64,000 nucleotides of DNA from Phycobacter azelaicus (lineage in GTDB: Bacteria > Pseudomonadota > Alphaproteobacteria > Rhodobacterales > Rhodobacteraceae). Location: the NCBI RefSeq assembly GCF_014884385.1, contig NZ_WKFH01000003.1, positions 1,440,001-1,504,000 of the forward strand, given 5' to 3'. Numbering within the stretch: position 1 is the stretch's first letter; the number at the start of each line of letters is the position of its first letter. The position numbers and the translations under genes are program-made. A model generated the notes under the pieces. It had not been told where the DNA came from. It did not search any database and saw nothing but the letters and a program-made list of their open reading frames with translations. This document shows, in pieces, positions 37,719-53,935 of the stretch.

Positions 37719-38510
37719 TTATGACGCGGTCAATGTTTTGGCCTCCTTTCGTGTTTTTTTTGCAGCCTCAGCGCTGGCCTTGAAGCGGTAGCTGTCGTTT
37801 CCGGTTTCGAGGATGTGGCAGCGGTGAGTCAGCCTATCGAGGAGCGCGGTTGTCATCTTTGCATCCCCGAAGACCTGCGCCCATTCTGAGAAGCTGAGGT
37901 TTGTGGTGATGATGACGCTGGTGCGCTCGTAGAGCTTGCTGAGCAGATGGAAGAGCAGCGCCCCGCCAGATGAACTGAACGGCAGGTAGCCGAGTTCGTC
38001 CAAGATGACCAAGTCGACCTTCGTCAGCATCTCAGCCAGTTTCCCTGCCTTACCAAGCGCCTTCTCCTGCTCCAGCGCGTTGACCAATTCCACGGTCGAG
38101 AAGAAGCGCACCTTACGCCGGTGATGTTCGATGGCTTGGACGCCGATTGCTGTGGCTGTGTGGCTCTTGCCCGTTCCGGGACCGCCGATCAAAACGACAT
38201 TCTCGGCCGCTTCGATAAACTCGCATCGGTGTAGCTGCCGCACTGTCGCTTCGTTGATCTCACTCGATGCAAAGTCGAAGCCCGTCAGATCCTTGTATGC
38301 GGGGAAGCGGGCGACCTTCGTGTGGTAGGCGATGGACCGTACCTCGCGTTCGGCGATCTCGGCCTTGAGCAGCTGTGACAGCATTGGTGTGGCAGCTTCG
38401 AACGCTGGCGCGCCCTGGGCGACCAAGTCTTCAATCGCATTTGCCATGCCATAGAGCTTAAGACTGCGCAGCATGATGACGATAGAGGCTCCTGCTGGGT
38501 CATGACGCAT
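37719..38510 (-). CDS. istB: IS21-family helper ATPase IstB
   Basis: 263 residues, AAA+ DnaC-like ATPase. Walker [16 protein letters not shown], Walker [16 protein letters not shown], sensor-type [13 protein letters not shown]. It assembles on target DNA and stimulates the IstA transposase. The start ATG at 38510 overlaps the istA 3' end (istA stops at 38500) and is preceded by GAGGAG, so it is translationally coupled. Confidence 0.95.
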
Positions 38511-40029
38511 GGCGCTTCTCCTCAGTCTGTCGCAACCCGTCATAGCGACCGACGTTGGCCACTGGCGTTGTCTGCAATGCCAGTGCGTCCGGCGGATCGA
38601 CCTCGGGGTGATCTGTCGGTCTGCGGTCGATCAATCGATGCAACAGGTTCAGGATGTGCGTCTTGGTGGGGACGCCTGCTTCAAGTGCCAGCTCCACTGC
38701 ACACAAAACGTCCTCTTCGTTGTGCTGAAGGACCAAAGACAGAATGTCGACCATCTCTCGGTCACCGCCTTCTTTACGCAGCATGTGATCCTGCAATTGA
38801 CGGAAGGCATCCGGCATCTCCGTGAACGGCGCACCATTCCGAAGTGCGCCCGGTTTGCGTTGGATAACAGCGAGATAGTGGCGCCAGTCATAGATGACCT
38901 TGCCGGGCTTGCGATGAGACCGCTCGATGATCCGCGCATGCTTGCAAACCGTTTGCCCTTCAGCGACCACGATCAGCCGTTCGGGATAGACATGCAAACT
39001 GACACGGCGGTTCGCAAAGCTGGCGGGAACGCTGTAGCGATTGCGTTCGAAAGTGATCAGGCATGTGGGTGACACACGCTTACTGTGTTCGATAAAGCCA
39101 TCGAATGCCGGCGGCAGTGCCATCAGCGTAGGCTTCTCGGCCTCCCACACGTCAGCGATGGACCCCGGCAAAGCCTTGTGCGGCGTCTCTGTCCAAAGGG
39201 CGATACAGCGATCTTCAAGCCATTGGTTCAGCTCTGCCAGATCGGCGCAGACCGGCATGACCTGCCACATGCGGTTGCGCGCATCCTGCACGTTCTTCTC
39301 AACCTGGCCTTTCTCCCAACCGGCCGCCGGATTGCAGAACTCGGGCTCAAACACGTAGTGGCTGGCCATAGCCTTGAAGCGTGCATTGACGTCCCGCTGC
39401 TTGCCTTTGCCCACACGATCAACGGCGGTCTTCATATTGTCATAGATCCCGCGACCAGGCACACCGCCGAACACGCGGAATGCATGCCAGTGGGCGTCAA
39501 ACAGCATCTCGTGCGTTTGCAGCGGGTAGGCCCGCACCAAGAAAGCGCGGCTGTGCGATAGCTTGATATGAGCGACCTGAAGTTTGACGCGCTCACCGCC
39601 GATGTTGGCCCAGTCCTCGCTCCAATCGAATTGGAAGGCTTCGCCGGGCGCGAACACCAAAGGCACGTAGGTGCCGCGCCCCGTCGTCTGTTCCGCTCGA
39701 TGCCGATCTTCACGCCATGCCCGGGCGAAAGCTGCCACGCGTTCATAGGAACCATTATATCCCAGCTTCACAAGATCAGCATGCATTTGCTTCACTGTCC
39801 GCCGCTCTTTGCGTGACTTCCGCGTCTGGATTAAAAGCCAGGCTGACAGCCGATCCGCGTAGGGGTCCAGCTTGCTTGGACGCTTGGGCGTCTTGAACTG
39901 CGGTTCCACCGCACCTTCACGCAGATACTTCTTGATCGTGTTCCGAGACAAACCCGTCCGCCGGGCAATCTCCCTGATTGGCATTTTGTCACGCAATGCC
40001 CAGCGTCGAATGACACTCAAAAATCCCAT
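38500..40029 (-). CDS. istA: IS21-family transposase IstA
   Basis: 509 residues. N-terminal HTH ([20 protein letters not shown]), a DDE integrase core starting with [19 protein letters not shown] and a later [16 protein letters not shown], the third acid in [16 protein letters not shown], and a C-terminal beta/helical tail. Complete length for IS21. The ATG ([10 protein letters not shown]) follows AGGAG at 6-7 bases; an upstream in-frame ATG inside the terminal repeats is less likely. Confidence 0.95.
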
Positions 40030-40142
40030 GTCGATCACTCCTAATCCCCCCAACCAAAACCGTCGGGGAAGTGTGTTCACATGGGTCAATTCTCAGTGAC
40101 AATTTATAGGGCTACCGGGTCAGTTCTCAGTGACAATCAACA

Positions 40143-42914: not shown

Positions 42915-43733
42915 ATGGGGTTTCCGGGAACCTGGATGACCGAAAGCGAAAGCGTGATCTATCGCGTGGTGCCCAAATGCGCCTGCTCGACCATTGGGCA
43001 GATCCTCTACTATTCGGATCACGGCCGCTTCTTTGACGGGGATATCCACGATTCCACCGAGGGTCTGCACAAATGGGCTCAGGAGCACAGCCAGGAACGT
43101 ATCACTCAGGCGGTGCAGGGGCATGAGACCTATGCCTTTACCTGCGTGCGTAACCCCTACACGCGTATCCTTAGCTCGTTCTTTGACAAGATCTGCGGCA
43201 TCCAGCGCAATGGCAGGAGATACCGCGGCAATCTGGTACCCAAGCTGGCCTATGATTACGGGATCGAGGTCGGCGGCGAGGACGGCAAGCAGGAGTTTGA
43301 CCAGATCAGGAGCTTTCGACGGTTCCTCTTGTTCGCGCGTGACACCATCCGCTGGCGCCGTCCGATGGATCCGGACATCCACTGGTCGGCGACTTCGGGC
43401 CATGTATCGACCTTCATCGTGAACGGCGGCAAATACGACAAGATCATCTGGACCGAGGCCTTCAACGACGGGATGCAAGAGGTGCTTGATGCGATCGAGA
43501 CGCCGCACAAGGTGGATCTGGCAACGATCCCGCGCTTCAACGAAAGCGAAGGCCACGGCCCCAAACGCGCGCACCCGGTGGAGGATTACTTCGACGATCT
43601 GTCCATGCATCTGGTCTACGAGATCTACAAGCGGGATTTCGAGCTGTTCAAATACGATTTCGAAAACCCCGCCAACAAGATGCCAGTGGGAGAGATTGAT
43701 CTTGACGAGGTGCACGCCAAGCTTGGCGACTGA
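42915..43733 (+). CDS. Sulfotransferase family protein (Sulfotransfer_2 type)
   Basis: 272 residues. The PAPS 5'-phosphosulfate loop is VVPKCACSTIGQIL and the 3'-phosphate motif is CVRNPYTRILSSFFDKI, the arrangement of carbohydrate (HNK-1/chondroitin-type) sulfotransferases. Downstream IIWTEAFNDGMQEVLDAI is also typical. It has no signal peptide, so it is cytoplasmic. It would sulfate a glycan precursor with PAPS. It is divergent from the GT14-like gene; sulfated exopolysaccharide is a reasonable but unproven product. A GAAAGAGG-type RBS is weakly visible. Confidence 0.87.
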   Translation: MGFPGTWMTESESVIYRVVPKCACSTIGQILYYSDHGRFFDGDIHDSTEGLHKWAQEHSQERITQAVQGHETYAFTCVRNPYTRILSSFFDKICGIQRNGRRYRGNLVPKLAYDYGIEVGGEDGKQEFDQIRSFRRFLLFARDTIRWRRPMDPDIHWSATSGHVSTFIVNGGKYDKIIWTEAFNDGMQEVLDAIETPHKVDLATIPRFNESEGHGPKRAHPVEDYFDDLSMHLVYEIYKRDFELFKYDFENPANKMPVGEIDLDEVHAKLGD

Positions 43734-43754: not shown

Positions 43755-44061
43755 CTCCCGCCCATCGTTCTGGCATTGAAAATGCCTATCCGATGGTTGG
43801 GCGTGGCGCCGCTGACGCGGCGCCAAGGGTTTTGGCTCAGAAGCGGTTCAGGGGCAGGTCTGCCCTGAACGCGCCATGCCGATTGTGAAAAGGACCCCAC
43901 CCCGCCTCAAGGGAACCCCGCGCTTCGCGCGAGGCCGCTGGCGCGGCCCTTGACCCGCGGTGCGATCCGGTTCGGCTGGAGGGGCGGCGCCGCGTATGCG
44001 GCGCCGGGCCCAAGGCCGCAAAGGGGAATTGCCGAAGGTAAGGCACCTGCGGGCGCGGGAG
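43755..44061 (+). repeat. Structured intergenic repeat element, copy 1
   Basis: A 307-bp element bounded by CTCCCGC at 43755 and GCGGGAG at 44055-44061. Order: arm X, hairpin A (GGCGCCGC-TGAC-GCGGCGCC, 43805-43824), core with hairpin B (GTTCAGGG...CCCTGAAC, 43846-43870) and a branched fold closed by TCAAGGG/CCCTTGA (43907-43953) holding two small hairpins, hairpin A' (43984-44003), then arm Y'. It shares ~150 bp of core and one arm with 51845-52169. No open frame is supported. It lies between convergent genes. Confidence 0.85.
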
Positions 44062-44151: not shown

Positions 44152-45996
44152 TTACGCGTCGTCCGGCAGCGCGCGGACGGCGCCTTTGGCGGCGCTGGTG
44201 GTCAGCATGGCGTAGGCCTTGAGCGCGGTCGAGACCTTGCGCTTGCGCGGTTTTGCCGGTTTCCAGCCTGCCGCATCCTGCGCGGCGCGGCGGGTGGCGA
44301 GCTCTTCGTCCGAAACTGCCAGGTGGATCGACCGGTTCGGGATGTCGATCTCGATGGTGTCGCCGGTCTGCACCAGGCCGATGGCGCCGCCTTCCGCTGC
44401 CTCAGGCGAGACGTGACCGATCGACAACCCCGAGGTGCCGCCCGAGAAACGACCGTCGGTCAGAAGCGCGCAGGCTTTGCCCAGACCTTTGGATTTGAGG
44501 TATGAGGTCGGGTAAAGCATTTCCTGCATCCCCGGACCGCCGCGCGGGCCCTCATAGCGGATCACCACCACGTCGCCCTCCTTGACCTTGCCTGTCAGGA
44601 TGTCGCTGACGGCCTGATCCTGGCTTTCGCAGACATAGGCCGAGCCGGTAAATTTGAGGATGCTTTCATCCACGCCCGCGGTTTTCACGATGCAGCCGTC
44701 CTCGGCGATATTGCCGAATAGCACCGCAAGCCCCCCGTCCTTGGAAAACGCATGTTCGGCCGAGCGGATCACGCCGCCTTTGCGGTCGGTGTCCAACTCC
44801 TTGTAGCGGTTGGACTGACTGAACGCCTGCGTGGTGCGCACGCCGCCCGGGGCGGCCTTGAACAGTTCTTCGGCCTCGGGGTTGTTGGCAACGGCGATAT
44901 CCCATTTGGCGATTGCCTCGCCCATGGTGCTGGAATGTACCGTCGAGCAGTCGTTGTGCAAAAGGCCCGCGCGCGAAAGCTCGCCCAGGATCGAGAAGAT
45001 GCCACCGGCGCGGTGCACGTCCTCCATGTGGACGTTTTCGATATTGGGCGCGACCTTGCACAGGCACGGCACCTTGCGGCTGAGCTGGTCCATGTGGGAC
45101 ATGTTGAAATCAACCTTGCCTTCGTTGGCGATGGCCAGAAGGTGCAGCACGGTATTGGTCGAGCCGCCCATGGCGATATCGAGGCTCATGGCGTTCTCGA
45201 AGGCCTCGAAGGTGGCAATTTCGCGCGGCAGCAGGCCCTTTTCCTCGCCCACGTAGTGACGCTTGGTGATGTCGACGATGCGACGGCCGGCCTCAAGGAA
45301 CAGCTGCTTGCGGTCGGCGTGGGTCGCCAGGGTCGAGCCGTTTCCGGGCAGGGCGAGCCCCAGCGCCTCGGCCAGGCAGTTCATCGAGTTTGCCGTGAAC
45401 ATGCCCGAGCAGGAGCCGCAGGTGGGGCAGGCGTTTTCCTCGATGTGCTTGACCTGCTCGTCGGTGAAGGTCTCGCTGGCTGCGGCGACCATGGCGTCCA
45501 CCAGGTCGATTTTTTTGGCGTCTAGATCAGCGATGTCGATCTTGCCCGCTTCCATCGGACCACCTGAGACAAAGATCGCCGGGATATTCAGGCGCATTGC
45601 GGCCATGAGCATGCCGGGCGTGATCTTGTCGCAGTTGGAAATGCAGACCATGGCGTCGGCGCAGTGGGCGTTGACCATGTATTCTACCGAATCCGCGATC
45701 ACCTCGCGCGAGGGCAGCGAGTAGAGCATACCGTCATGTCCCATGGCGATGCCGTCATCCACCGCGATGGTGTTGAATTCCTTGGCAACGCCGCCTGCAG
45801 CCTCCACCTCGCGGGCGACCATCTGGCCGAGATCCTTGAGGTGGACGTGACCGGGCACGAATTGGGTGAAGGAGTTGACAATGGCGATGATCGGCTTGCC
45901 GAAATCATCGTCCTTCATGCCGGTTGCGCGCCAAAGGCCACGCGCGCCGGCCATGTTGCGTCCATGGGTGGAGGTTCTGGATCGGTACATTGGCAT
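44152..45996 (-). CDS. ilvD: Dihydroxy-acid dehydratase
   Basis: 614 residues. It dehydrates 2,3-dihydroxy-isovalerate and its methyl homologue to 2-oxo acids, an iron-sulfur and Mg2+-dependent step of valine, isoleucine and leucine synthesis. Fe-S ligands lie in [10 protein letters not shown] and [19 protein letters not shown]. The start [20 protein letters not shown] matches the family N terminus, so the ATG at 45996 is chosen over an upstream in-frame start. It is preceded on the same strand by the BenE-like gene, but with 111 bp between and its own terminator. Confidence 0.97.
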
Positions 45997-46107
45997 GTGG
46001 CTATTTCCCTTTTTTACCCTCAGGGACATGATTTGCGAAACAAATGCAATAACTGAGGAACGGTTTTGGTTGTTTTGCTCTGCATTGTAGAGCTGTTCTG
46101 GATGGGA

Positions 46108-49690: not shown

Positions 49691-50542
49691 ATGGATGATC
49701 CGAAAACCCTGGTGTCGACCGATTGGCTGGCGGCCCATTTGAAGGACCCCGACCTGCGCATTCTGGACGGCTCCTGGTACTTGCCGAACGAAAACCGCGA
49801 TCCCAAGGCCGAATATGACGCCGCTCATATACCCGGCGCGCGCTTTTTCGATATCGACGATGTGGCCGATCACCGCTCGGATCTGCCGCATATGGCGCCG
49901 CCGGTGGAAAAGTTCATGTCGCGCCTGCGGGCGATGGGCGTGGGCGACGGGCACCAGGTGGTGGTCTATGATGGTGCCGGTCTGAAATCTGCGGCGCGCG
50001 TCTGGTGGCTGTTCCGCCTGATGGGGCAGACCAACGTAGCCGTTCTGGATGGCGGTCTGCCGAAATGGCAGGCCGAGGGACACCCGGTGGAGGACCTGCC
50101 GCCGGTGATCCGTGATCGCCACATGACCGTGCGGGTGCAAAACAGCCTGGTGCGCGATGTGACGCAGGTGTCGGCTGCGGCCAAGCTGGGCGATCACGAG
50201 ATCATCGACGCCCGCGCTGCCGCCCGGTTCCGCGGCGAAGCGCCCGAACCCCGCGAAGGGCTGCGGGCAGGCCATATTCCGGGATCGAAAAACGTGCCCT
50301 ACACCGACCTTCTGAATTCCGATGGCACCATGAAGGACGCGGCCGGTATCCGCGCCACCTTCGAAGGCGCCGGTGTCGACCTCAAGAAACCTGCCATCAC
50401 CACCTGCGGCTCGGGCGTGACCGCCGCCGTTCTCAGCCTGGCCCTGGAGCGGATCGGCAAAACCGATCATGCGCTTTATGACGGCTCCTGGTCCGAATGG
50501 GGCGCCTTCCCGACCCTACCCGTTGCAACCGGAGAGAACTGA
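49691..50542 (+). CDS. sseA: 3-mercaptopyruvate sulfurtransferase
   Basis: 283 residues, two rhodanese domains (first ~8-125 with DGSWYLPNENRDPKAEYDAA, second ~160-283). The active-site loop CGSGVTA near residue 238 is the SseA/MST form rather than the thiosulfate rhodanese form. It transfers sulfur from 3-mercaptopyruvate to acceptors. RBS GGGGAGG precedes the ATG (MDDPKTLVST). Its stop overlaps the aminotransferase start, which fits, since aminotransferases can make 3-mercaptopyruvate from cysteine. Confidence 0.93.
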   Translation: MDDPKTLVSTDWLAAHLKDPDLRILDGSWYLPNENRDPKAEYDAAHIPGARFFDIDDVADHRSDLPHMAPPVEKFMSRLRAMGVGDGHQVVVYDGAGLKSAARVWWLFRLMGQTNVAVLDGGLPKWQAEGHPVEDLPPVIRDRHMTVRVQNSLVRDVTQVSAAAKLGDHEIIDARAAARFRGEAPEPREGLRAGHIPGSKNVPYTDLLNSDGTMKDAAGIRATFEGAGVDLKKPAITTCGSGVTAAVLSLALERIGKTDHALYDGSWSEWGAFPTLPVATGEN

Positions 50543-51726
50543 TGTTCGAGACCCTCAAACCCCAGCCAGCCGACAAGATCCTGGCGCTGATGCAGATGTA
50601 CCGCGAAGATCCGCGGGAGCAGAAGATCGACCTTGGCGTCGGTGTCTACAAGAACGCCGAGGGCGTCACCCCGGTGATGCGCGCGATCAAGGCGGCCGAG
50701 CACAAGCTGTGGGAAGAAGAAACCACCAAGGCCTACACCGGACTTGCGGGCGATCCTGGCTACGCCGATGCCATGATCAAGCTGATCCTTGCGGATAGCG
50801 TCGCGCGCGGAAATATTGCCGCCGCCGCCACTCCGGGCGGCACCGGCGCGGTGCGTCAGGCCTTTGAACTGATCAAGATGGCCAACCCCAAGGCGCGCGT
50901 GTTCGTGTCGGATCCGACCTGGCCGAACCACATTTCGATCCTGAAATACGTTGGCATCGAGACCGTCACCTATCGCTATTTCGACCGCGAAACCCGCGGC
51001 GTGAACTTTGGCGGGATGATCGAGGATCTGAAGGGCGCCGAAAAGGGCGATGTTGTGCTGCTGCACGGCTGCTGCCACAACCCGACCGGCGCCAACCTGA
51101 ACGTGAGCCAGTGGCAGGAGGTGATCGACCTTCTGAACGCCCGCGGCCTGATCCCGATGATCGACATCGCCTACCAGGGCTTTGGCGACGGCTTGGAGGA
51201 AGACGCGGCAGGCGTGCGCATGGTGGCGGCCCAGACGCCCGAATGCCTGATCGCGGCGAGCTGCTCCAAGAACTTCGGCATCTATCGTGAGCGCACCGGC
51301 CTTCTGATGGCGGTCAGCCAGGATGGCAGCGCCCAGGCGCTGAACCAGGGCACGCTGGCGTTCCTCAACCGGCAGAACTTCTCTTTCCCGCCGGATCATG
51401 GCGCGCGCCTGGTGACGATGATCCTCAATGATGACGCCCTGCGCGCCGATTGGGCTTCTGAGCTGGAAGAAGTACGTCTGGGCATGCTTGATCTGCGTCA
51501 GCAGCTGGCGGATGAGTTGCTGCGGCTCAGCGGCTCGGACCGGTTCGGCTTCATCGCGCAGCACCGTGGCATGTTCTCGCTGCTGGGGACCACGCCGGAC
51601 CTTGTCGAGAAGATGCGCGTTGACAATGGCATCTACATGGTCGGCGACAGCCGTATGAACATCGCGGGGCTGAACAAGACCACCGTGCCGCTGCTGGCCA
51701 AGGCCATCATCGACGCGGGCGTCTGA
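50542..51726 (+). CDS. Aspartate/aromatic amino-acid aminotransferase (class I)
   Basis: 394 residues, PLP enzyme of the AspC/TyrB type: KIDLGVGVYKNAEGVTPVM, ATPGGTGAVRQAF, CCHNPTGANL, PMIDIAYQGFGDGLEED, the PLP lysine in SCSKNFGIYRERTG, and FSFPPDHGARLV. It exchanges amino groups between aspartate or aromatic amino acids and 2-oxoglutarate. The ATG sits on the sseA stop (TGATG), so translation is coupled; a shared role in cysteine-sulfur metabolism is possible. Exact specificity cannot be decided from sequence. Confidence 0.93.
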   Translation: MFETLKPQPADKILALMQMYREDPREQKIDLGVGVYKNAEGVTPVMRAIKAAEHKLWEEETTKAYTGLAGDPGYADAMIKLILADSVARGNIAAAATPGGTGAVRQAFELIKMANPKARVFVSDPTWPNHISILKYVGIETVTYRYFDRETRGVNFGGMIEDLKGAEKGDVVLLHGCCHNPTGANLNVSQWQEVIDLLNARGLIPMIDIAYQGFGDGLEEDAAGVRMVAAQTPECLIAASCSKNFGIYRERTGLLMAVSQDGSAQALNQGTLAFLNRQNFSFPPDHGARLVTMILNDDALRADWASELEEVRLGMLDLRQQLADELLRLSGSDRFGFIAQHRGMFSLLGTTPDLVEKMRVDNGIYMVGDSRMNIAGLNKTTVPLLAKAIIDAGV

Positions 51727-51844: not shown

Positions 51845-52169
51845 CTCCCGCGCCCGCAGGTGCCTTGCCTGCGGCAAGACCCCTTTGCGGCCATGGGCCC
51901 GGCGCCGCTGACGCGGCGCTGGGGATTTGGCTGAGAGGCGGTTTAAGGGCAGGCCTGCCCTTAAACGCGCCTTGATCATTGTCAAGGACAGCGCACCGCG
52001 CCTCAAGGGAACCCCGCGCTTTGCGCGAGGCCGCTTATGCGGCCCTTGACCCACGGCGCGCTTTGATGAGCGGGGCTTTGACGGCAGAGGAGAGCAGCAG
52101 GTGCCGCGATAGCGGCGCCGGGCCCAACCGTAGAGGCCCAGTCTTTGACTGTGCCGGAATGGGCGGGAG
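51845..52169 (+). repeat. Structured intergenic repeat element, copy 2
   Basis: A 325-bp element with the same boundaries (CTCCCGC ... GCGGGAG) and core as 43755-44061. Hairpin A (51901-51920), hairpin B (51941-51966, now a perfect 26-base palindrome with two compensatory base-pair changes versus copy 1), the TCAAGGG/CCCTTGA branched fold (52003-52049) and hairpin A' (52100-52119) are all kept. Its arms are exchanged relative to copy 1: arm Y lies on the left and arm X' on the right. It also lies between convergent genes. Confidence 0.85.
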
Positions 52170-52260: not shown

Positions 52261-53571
52261 TTAGCCTGCCTTGAACTCCGGATAGGCTTCCATGCCCAGC
52301 TCCGACATGTCGAGACCATTGATCTCATCCTCTTCGGAGACACGGATGCCCATGGTTGCCTTGAGGATGAACCAGACGATCAGCGAGGCCACGAAGGTGA
52401 AGACACCGTAGGCGATGATGCCGGTCAGCTGGGTCACGAGGCTGGCGTCGCCGTAGAAGATGACCGCGATGGTGCCCCAGATGCCTGCCAGCAGGTGAAC
52501 CGGAATGGCGCCTACCACATCGTCGATCTTGAACTTGTCCAGCATCGGCACGGTGAAGACCACGATTACACCACCGACGGCACCGATCCAGAGCGCGCCA
52601 AAGAGCGTGGGGGCCAGAGGCTCAGCCGTGATCGACACGAGACCGGCCAGAGCGCCGTTCAGAACCATGGTCAGGTCGACCTTCTTGTACATCACCTGCG
52701 TCAGGATCAGTGCGGTCACAGCACCGGCCGCAGCGGCCATGTTGGTGTTGGCAAAGATGCGCGACACGTCGGAAACATCACCCACGGTGCCCATTGCCAG
52801 CTGCGAGCCGCCGTTGAAGCCGAACCAGCCGAGCCACAGGATGAATGTGCCGAGCGTTGCCAGAGCCAGGTTGGAACCGGGCATCGGGTTGACGCGGCCA
52901 TCCTTGTACTTGCCCAGACGCGGGCCGAGGACGATGGCGCCGGCCAGAGCAGCCCAGCCACCTACGGAGTGAACGACGGTGGAGCCTGCGAAATCGGAGA
53001 AGCCCATTTCAGACAGCCAGCCGCCACCCCACTGCCAGGACCCGGAAATCGGGTACATGAAGCCGGTCAGGACAACGACAAAGGCCAGGAAAGGCCACAG
53101 TTTGATGCGCTCGGCCAGGGCACCGGACACGATGGACGCGGTTGCCGCCACAAACACCAGCTGGAAGAAGAAGTCAGAGCCGACCGAAGCGTAGTCAAGC
53201 GCGGCATCTGCTGCGGATACGCCAACCGCATCCAGCACGGTCTGACCACCGAGCGAGAAGAAGCCGTTGAACTCGCCCGGATACATGGTGTTGAAGCCGA
53301 CCAGCCAGTACATGATGGCCGCGATCGAGTAGAGCGCGATGTTCTTGGTCATCTGCATGGTGACGTTCTTCGAACGCACCAGCCCGCCTTCGAGCATCGC
53401 GAAACCCGCAGCCATGAAGAACACCAGGAAGCCTGCCATGCAGAACAGCAGGGTCGTCATGATGTAGGGACCGATTTCGTCAAAACCCGGCGCAGCCGCG
53501 TCCTGGGCCAGTGCCAGACCCGGCAGGGCGGCAAACCCAAGGGTGGCAAGTGAAAGTTTCAGTTTACGCAT
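52261..53571 (-). CDS. amtB: Ammonium transporter AmtB
   Basis: 436 residues. A signal peptide (LATLGFAALPGLALAQ) is followed by the eleven-helix Amt fold: FMAAGFAMLEGGLVRSKN, DFAGSTVVHSVGGWAALAGA (conserved His of the pore), WFGFNGGSQ, and PVHLLAGIWGTIAV (second pore His). It conducts ammonium into the cell when nitrogen is scarce. It is downstream of glnK by 25 bases, the usual glnK-amtB operon, so GlnK is its partner regulator. Confidence 0.96.
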   Translation of the reverse strand: MRKLKLSLATLGFAALPGLALAQDAAAPGFDEIGPYIMTTLLFCMAGFLVFFMAAGFAMLEGGLVRSKNVTMQMTKNIALYSIAAIMYWLVGFNTMYPGEFNGFFSLGGQTVLDAVGVSAADAALDYASVGSDFFFQLVFVAATASIVSGALAERIKLWPFLAFVVVLTGFMYPISGSWQWGGGWLSEMGFSDFAGSTVVHSVGGWAALAGAIVLGPRLGKYKDGRVNPMPGSNLALATLGTFILWLGWFGFNGGSQLAMGTVGDVSDVSRIFANTNMAAAAGAVTALILTQVMYKKVDLTMVLNGALAGLVSITAEPLAPTLFGALWIGAVGGVIVVFTVPMLDKFKIDDVVGAIPVHLLAGIWGTIAVIFYGDASLVTQLTGIIAYGVFTFVASLIVWFILKATMGIRVSEEDEINGLDMSELGMEAYPEFKAG

Positions 53572-53596
53572 CTGTATTTTCCTCCAGAACGAGCGC

Positions 53597-53935
53597 TTAG
53601 AGCGCCTCGAGGTTGGTTTCGCCGGTGCGCACACGCACGGCCTGTGCCACATCCAGGACAAAGATCTTCCCATCGCCGATCTTGCCCGTGCGCGCGGTGG
53701 ACGAGATGGTGTCCACCACCTGGTCTGCCAGCTCGCTCGGCACTACGATTTCCAGTTTGACCTTGGGTACGAAGTTCACTTCGTATTCGGCACCACGGTA
53801 GATTTCCGTGTGGCCTGCCTGGGCTCCAAAGCCTTTGATTTCCGTCACCATCAGACCTGAAACACCGATTTTGGTCAGCGCTTCGCGGACCTCCTCGAGT
53901 TTGAAGGGTTTGATGGCTGCTATGATCATTTTCAT
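53597..53935 (-). CDS. glnK: Nitrogen regulatory PII protein GlnK
   Basis: 112 residues, complete. MKMIIAAIKPFKLEEVREAL, the T-loop with uridylylation Tyr51 in GHTEIYRGAEYEVNF, and the nucleotide-binding GKIGDGKIFVLDV. It binds ATP/ADP and 2-oxoglutarate and plugs AmtB under nitrogen excess. It leads the operon. A GG-N10-GC sequence at 53981-53995, of -24/-12 (sigma-54) type, lies upstream and could provide nitrogen control. Confidence 0.97.
   Translation of the reverse strand: MKMIIAAIKPFKLEEVREALTKIGVSGLMVTEIKGFGAQAGHTEIYRGAEYEVNFVPKVKLEIVVPSELADQVVDTISSTARTGKIGDGKIFVLDVAQAVRVRTGETNLEAL

Follow-up and report, generated by a model that had tools for sequence, protein, structure and literature searches.

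The window analysed here, a 64,000-nucleotide stretch of Phycobacter azelaicus DNA (contig NZ_WKFH01000003.1, positions 1,440,001 to 1,504,000), contains two complete copies of a structured intergenic element, each located between a pair of convergent genes (Table 1). A preliminary description of the first copy had placed its ends at 43755 and 44061 and reported a core in common with a second copy at 51845–52169. These ends are exact, as terminal inverted repeats lie there and at the boundaries of the second copy, and the two cores are 82% identical over 167 bp. The earlier remark that no coding frame explains the element also holds: copy 1 lies between the convergent stop codons at 43733 and 44152, and no gene runs over it. 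The window additionally carries an IS21-like pair (37719-40089) with IstB and Mu-type transposase domains; in the whole genome, seven IstB-type matches, including that of the window, have an identical score, and an eighth nearly so.

Table 1. Features of the two element copies in the window and their neighbouring genes. R2 is the broader of the two covariance models of the core described in the text.
Feature	Position	Strand	Detail
Complete element, copy 1	43755..44061	+	between sulfotransferase-like gene and ilvD
Sulfotransferase-like gene, left neighbour of copy 1	42915-43733	+	
ilvD, right neighbour of copy 1	44152-46029	-	
Copy 1 left terminal inverted repeat	43755..43761	+	CTCCCGC
Copy 1 left arm hairpin	43762..43796	+	type a
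Copy 1 stalk, 5' side	43797..43824	+	TTGGGC + c1 (GGCGCCGC TGAC GCGGCGCC); fold prediction
Copy 1 core	43828..43986	+	R2 match, 127.3 bits, E 1.1e-35; final ~20 nt are model tail without pairing
Copy 1 conserved unpaired motif	43835..43841	+	GCTGAGA-type, here GCTCAGA
Copy 1 hairpin B	43843..43872	+	
Copy 1 branched stem	43894..43967	+	outer part variable
Copy 1 inner stem of the branched stem	43907-43913 / 43947-43953	+	TCAAGGG / CCCTTGA
Copy 1 two small hairpins within the branched stem	about 43917-43934, 43935-43946	+	
Copy 1 stalk, 3' side	43986..44013	+	c2 (GGCGCCGC GTAT GCGGCGCC) + GGGCCCAA
Copy 1 right arm hairpin	44014..44054	+	type b
Copy 1 right terminal inverted repeat	44055..44061	+	GCGGGAG
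Complete element, copy 2	51845..52169	+	between aminotransferase and ammonium transporter genes
Class I/II aminotransferase gene, left neighbour of copy 2	50497-51726	+	
Ammonium transporter gene, right neighbour of copy 2	52261-53673	-	
Copy 2 left terminal inverted repeat	51845-51851		CTCCCGC
Copy 2 core	51923..52082	+	R2 match, 121.5 bits, E 5.5e-34
Copy 2 right terminal inverted repeat	52163-52169		GCGGGAG

Folding of the element as single-stranded DNA yielded z scores of -5.31 for copy 1 and -7.34 for copy 2, and in both cases none of 100 dinucleotide shuffles reached as low a value. In the predicted architecture, the terminal repeats pair and enclose the left and right arm hairpins, and a long stalk between these two hairpins presents the core in its loop. 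The stalk, as defined from the folds and the copies, is composed of TTGGGC, c1, c2 and GCCCAA (in copy 1, TTGGGC and c1 are the predicted pairing partners of c2 and GCCCAA). The core comprises a conserved unpaired GCTGAGA-type motif, then hairpin B, a spacer and a branched stem. In the branched stem the outer part varies strongly, the inner TCAAGG/CCTTGA stem is conserved, and two small hairpins complete the structure. The core of copy 2 has the same orientation as that of copy 1 and its arms are exchanged (b on the left, a on the right); one arm is common to the two in inverted order (91% over 75 bp). Core-less short forms composed of arms and stalk only are also recognizable by eye in the same genome.

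Searching related genomes with the core uncovered many more copies. With the arms included, DNA searches returned 25 matches in the genome of origin (G000) and 24, 20 and 20 in its congeners G001, G002 and G003, while a covariance model of the core built from 15 sequences (R1) identified 16, 18, 19 and 20 copies, respectively, after removal of two opposite-strand overlaps; one of the 16 copies in G000, at 1562547, is degraded (35 bits). By flank similarity, the 73 copies of the four genomes fall into 20 loci, 14 of them occupied in all four species, five in three and one in two, with none private to a single species and with the orientation of the element relative to the flanking genes constant at all 20. 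At L326 (G000:C3 1891427-1891617), the sole locus with a missing core that was examined, the core has been deleted and an arm remnant is left, and G001, G002 and G003 keep the core; this state is a loss and not an empty site.

Beyond the genus, a survey of one genome per genus with strict filters found matches, often a single copy, in 33 of 198 genomes (G000 included) of the host family, which the relatives of the sequence suggest to be Rhodobacteraceae/Roseobacteraceae. The remaining 165 genera had no match under these filters, and the family as a whole can therefore do without the element. A broader covariance model (R2; 55 sequences, 39 pairs) matched in 32 of 40 chosen genomes, with 42 matches each, overlaps included, in G018 and G069; small opposite-strand overlaps on the same element were excluded from copy counts. 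Most of 41 copies in G018 are 81–97% identical to one of the two query copies (at least four of the 41, e.g. C2:11489 and C3:212765, are not among these), and the family thus expands within lineages. Some placements recur across genera: at six loci (L144, L147, L149, L165, L221 and L229) the element sits between one and the same gene pair, whose right member resembles a GMC dehydrogenase by eye, and L167 and L169 likewise agree in both of their neighbours. A covariance scan of the ilvD region at 80 named loci (1.62 Mb) gave no match at E values up to 0.01, and the element is therefore absent from the ilvD locus in those 80 records. Related sequence also occurs on Leisingera plasmids, where six records hold a stretch corresponding to 40–64% of the query; in one of the six, the 108-kb Leisingera caerulea plasmid NZ_CP081065.1, the core relative (L312) lies between caspase-family and DUF4384 genes.

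The two window copies differ in a manner that had been attributed to compensatory change and to selection on a fold. The differences on which this proposal was built can all be read in the sequence: in hairpin B, pair 4 is C-G in copy 1 and T-A in copy 2, pair 6 is G-C versus A-T, and the loop of a small hairpin changes from TGGC to TTAT. Weak from two copies alone, the case for fold conservation becomes very strong once 72 copies from the genus and 50 matches from the family are considered. In the family set (n = 50; 47 loci and three opposite-strand rows), 91.6% of the cells are paired and changes on both sides occur at 33 of 39 pairs, with a covariation score of 0.476 compared with 0.129 (sd 0.008) in 500 shuffles and 0.037–0.088 when the partners are slid. 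The genus set (n = 72) behaves alike, with 93.1% of cells paired, both-sided change at 31 of 39 pairs and a score of 0.435 versus 0.112 shuffled and 0.044–0.078 slid. Because both alignments were fitted to the covariance model, a second test was carried out on orthologs aligned with MAFFT from sequence alone at the 20 loci (restricted to pairs with Watson-Crick bases in the reference copy and excluding the degraded copy L020). Stem sites differed at 6.0% and unpaired core sites at 31.8%. Changes on both sides were found at 67 pairs, 60 of which are still Watson-Crick, whereas about six would be expected at equal independent rates by our own estimate and slid partners gave 14–32; single-sided changes numbered 74 (32 A·C, 23 G·T and 19 other) versus 225–298 with slid partners. 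Paired changes thus preserve the fold of the core, and its stems are approximately fivefold less divergent than unpaired sites.

Structured RNA tolerates G·U far better than A·C. The element shows no such preference: G·T and T·G together amount to 19 in the family set versus 32 for A·C and C·A, and to 48 versus 61 in the genus set, G·T making up 1.1% and 1.9% of standard pairs, respectively. In the rRNA of the same window, by contrast, wobble and A·C pairs numbered 19 versus 0 in a 630-column part of the 23S and 5 versus 1 in the 5S. Covariation that lacks a wobble preference, set against the rRNA, points to a DNA rather than an RNA fold; the preliminary description had left the choice between an RNA and a single-stranded DNA fold, and of this, selection on a fold is strongly supported and the choice can be narrowed towards DNA. 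Its author also knew of no named family for the element, and Rfam agrees: Rfam 15 at the gathering score gave no match over the element in a search of the whole window, and at E values up to 5 no convincing match was obtained for eight family loci. The excerpted text of a paper on R. pomeroyi sRNAs contains nothing corresponding to the element (PMC4809877), and no prior description was found in the literature searched, a body of work that mostly excludes subscription journals.

The core is furthermore oriented relative to replication. Using parS as a marker of the origin region (in G000 the origin is inferred from parS alone), 15 of the 16 cores in G000 (p 5e-4) and 18 of the 19 in the single-contig genome G002 (p 7.6e-5) are oriented with the fork; the two counts have loci in common and hence are not independent, and one shared locus (locus 2, one of the 20) supplies the only exception in each. 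The sampled GC skew of G002 flips at parS, with a second sign change at 0.1–0.3 Mb. Most other genera are represented by draft assemblies. Same-strand pairs within contigs account for 71 of 72 in G018 (contig C1 split at parS; permutation p 5e-5), 22 of 22 in G069 (p 1.5e-4), 29 of 29 in G007 (p 2.5e-4, from the 19 of 25 matches that were listed) and 4 of 4 in G021 (p 0.10). On contig C1 of G018, nine copies below parS are on the minus strand and one above it is on the plus strand; contig C6, with one copy on each strand, provides the sole exception among the pairs of this genome. The G069 count excludes two matches of ~35 bits, C1:108238 (minus, against its contig) and C35:224464 (plus, with its contig), and G203 and the few-copy carriers G145, G117, G205, G192, G162, G212 and G023 lie outside the strand statistics. 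In G203, two of six copies fit by hand count if parS at 3.453 Mb is the origin, and the replication map of this genome is ambiguous because its sampled GC skew is scrambled. Local GC skew was concordant with the core in 31 of 39 samples and third-position skew in 30 of 39 (of 40 samples taken, the one around C1:108238, which disagrees, was excluded). A single orientation prevails in G000, G002, G018, G069 and G007, the exceptions being locus 2, contig C6 of G018, the weak G069 match and G203. In most judgeable genomes the core has the direction of the inferred fork, which makes its plus strand the lagging-strand template.

The direction of genes is insufficient to account for this polarity, since 42% of the coding sequence of G002 is on the leading strand (19 of 20 samples, the terminus sample at 0.09 Mb being excluded) and 56% is on the strand of the element in the 39 other samples (the crude gene finder recovered five of seven known window genes, with the strand right for all). 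At locus 11, both adjoining genes are opposite to the core and the polarity is intact in G000 and G002. Copies also lie closer to the origin than a uniform spread predicts (KS p 0.004 and 0.019), for which the placement of conserved genes could be an alternative cause. Beyond what the preliminary description contained, the family is mostly replication-oriented, fixed at 20 genus loci and modular. In G094 (L143), the element is flipped between the gene pair of the exception locus; this one convergent pair carries the element in opposite orientations in two genera (L123, L125, L136 and L188 versus L143).

A constrained DNA fold that is needed on the lagging template suggests a single-strand site for a replication-linked protein. 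We favor, with a probability of roughly 0.42, a DNA element that would fold on the lagging-strand template and be recognised by such a protein or serve as a polar chromosome mark. During replication the lagging-strand template is single-stranded, which would allow the core fold to form, and a replication or repair factor may then recognise it by structure before sequence; alternatively, the fold may give the chromosome a polar mark. On phage and plasmid DNA, folded single-strand initiation sites are recognised in this way by PriA or primase. By analogy, the elements might form a class of sites in roseobacter-type chromosomes at which a factor for replication, restart or segregation is loaded or steered, a chromosomal counterpart of those initiation sites, although in this specific form we regard the proposal as unlikely.

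Other explanations account for parts of these data. In an excerpt of its text, one study describes how template switching can fix the pairing of an existing stem and yield double changes (PMC8794818). Palindromes without a function, with arms that this process keeps alike during replication, would show double changes and would also lack a wobble preference; we nevertheless consider this the most improbable of the explanations, given that unbiased correction alone should not, by our reasoning, cut stem differences fivefold relative to unpaired sites, that unpaired motifs are conserved and that the element is retained at 20 loci. An RNA structure in the 3'-untranslated region of the upstream gene, acting in stability, termination or as an sRNA, seems only slightly less improbable. 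Upstream of the core there is usually a co-oriented gene with its stop codon 80–110 nt away, and at 17 of the 20 genus loci one or more species have such a gene directly upstream (loci 11 and 12 have a left gene opposite to the core, and locus 10 is ambiguous), an arrangement that a role at the RNA 3' end also predicts. Against it stand the G·U pairs, no more frequent than A·C here but 19 versus 0 in the analysed part of the 23S rRNA, the failure of coding direction to account for the polarity, the lack of a co-oriented upstream gene at locus 11 and the silence of Rfam.

Close behind the replication-site reading, if itself rather unlikely, comes a mobile element, old and non-autonomous, that would have travelled as a single strand from the lagging template or by another strand-biased route, in which case the fold was needed for movement and the polarity is a record of insertion. 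Terminal inverted repeats, hairpins and polarity are all consistent with such an origin, as is the expansion within lineages exemplified by G018; a Y1 transposase is encoded by six of 20 carriers versus none of eight non-carriers, and IS608 and ISDra2 target the lagging-strand template, according to the excerpted text of PMC6006769. The terminal inverted repeats characteristic of a MITE are present in both window copies (CTCCCGC/GCGGGAG), and the ends of the G018 elements are similar and longer by eye; inspection by eye of the sequence around the copies showed no target-site duplication. Recent movement within the genus, in contrast, finds no trace among the 73 copies, as none of their 20 loci is private and each is occupied in at least two of the four species. 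Further arguments against mobility are that the stems still look constrained at fixed loci, that the core missing from the single locus examined was lost by a deletion which left part of an arm rather than an empty site, and that no Y1 transposase (PF01797) match was detected in G000-G003, G069, G007, G021 or G203. Among the 12 carriers with at least five listed matches, the transposase is absent in eight and present in four (G018, G145, G117 and G205). As a general mobiliser it was rejected, with no match in 14 of the 20 carriers searched. Arms-only short forms are, by eye, too scarce and heterogeneous to serve as a control for polarity. At two G018 loci, L277 (C3, ~149.2-149.7 kb) and L285 (C8, ~62.8-63.3 kb), PF01797 matches start 127 nt 3' of the core and the right part of the element is replaced, as if by an IS200-like insertion at AATTCAC; the IS200-like sequence seems to have entered the repeat and not to have given rise to it.

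Comparison with known systems shows partial likenesses. BIME/REP and RIME sequences are intergenic, palindromic, modular, multi-copy and often situated between convergent genes, all of which is true of the element; unlike BIME/REP, it has a 150-nt covarying core, replication polarity and fixed loci, and unlike RAYT-dispersed REP/BIME it occurs mostly without a Y1 transposase match (14 of 20 carriers). Single-strand initiation or primosome assembly sites of phages and plasmids consist of folded single-stranded DNA and depend on their orientation on the lagging template; the element appears similar in size, predicted single-strand folding and single orientation on that template, but is chromosomal, multi-copy and known here from sequence rather than from priming. 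KOPS are polar with replication, as is the element, but they are linear and only about 8 bp long. The same length and linear form are given for AIMS in an excerpt of PMC5993296; unlike both, the element is a fold of considerable size, and its copies lie closer to the origin than a uniform spread would place them. Its hairpins and lagging-template polarity also resemble the ends of IS200/IS605 and the small elements derived from them (PMC6006769, excerpted text), from which it differs by its terminal inverted repeats, its stable loci and the absence of the family transposase in most carriers tested.

Covariation in bacterial intergenic sequence is normally taken as evidence of RNA, whereas here, without a wobble preference and with polarity, it points to a DNA fold. 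If this is true, selection can act on a single-strand DNA structure of one replication strand as a heritable feature of the chromosome, and simple tests such as counting G·T against A·C and comparing orientation with the fork could reclassify other 'structured RNA' candidates.

Two minor features concern other genera. In the outer stem (A6), GANTC, the CcrM site, occurs at least twice per copy in 26 of 47 copies, with 1.28 per copy versus 0.44 in shuffles, and its middle base seems to covary by eye. It is not enriched in the genus of origin (0.25 per copy versus 0.52 in shuffles), and GANTC was set aside as a common feature of the element. In addition, at L151, L221, L229, L150, L220 and L222 a hairpin whose loop is rich in C, for example CCCACCCGCCCACCC, can be recognised by eye upstream of the core; this hairpin occupies the place of the CTCCCGCC arm of the genus and presents a G-quadruplex motif on the opposite strand.
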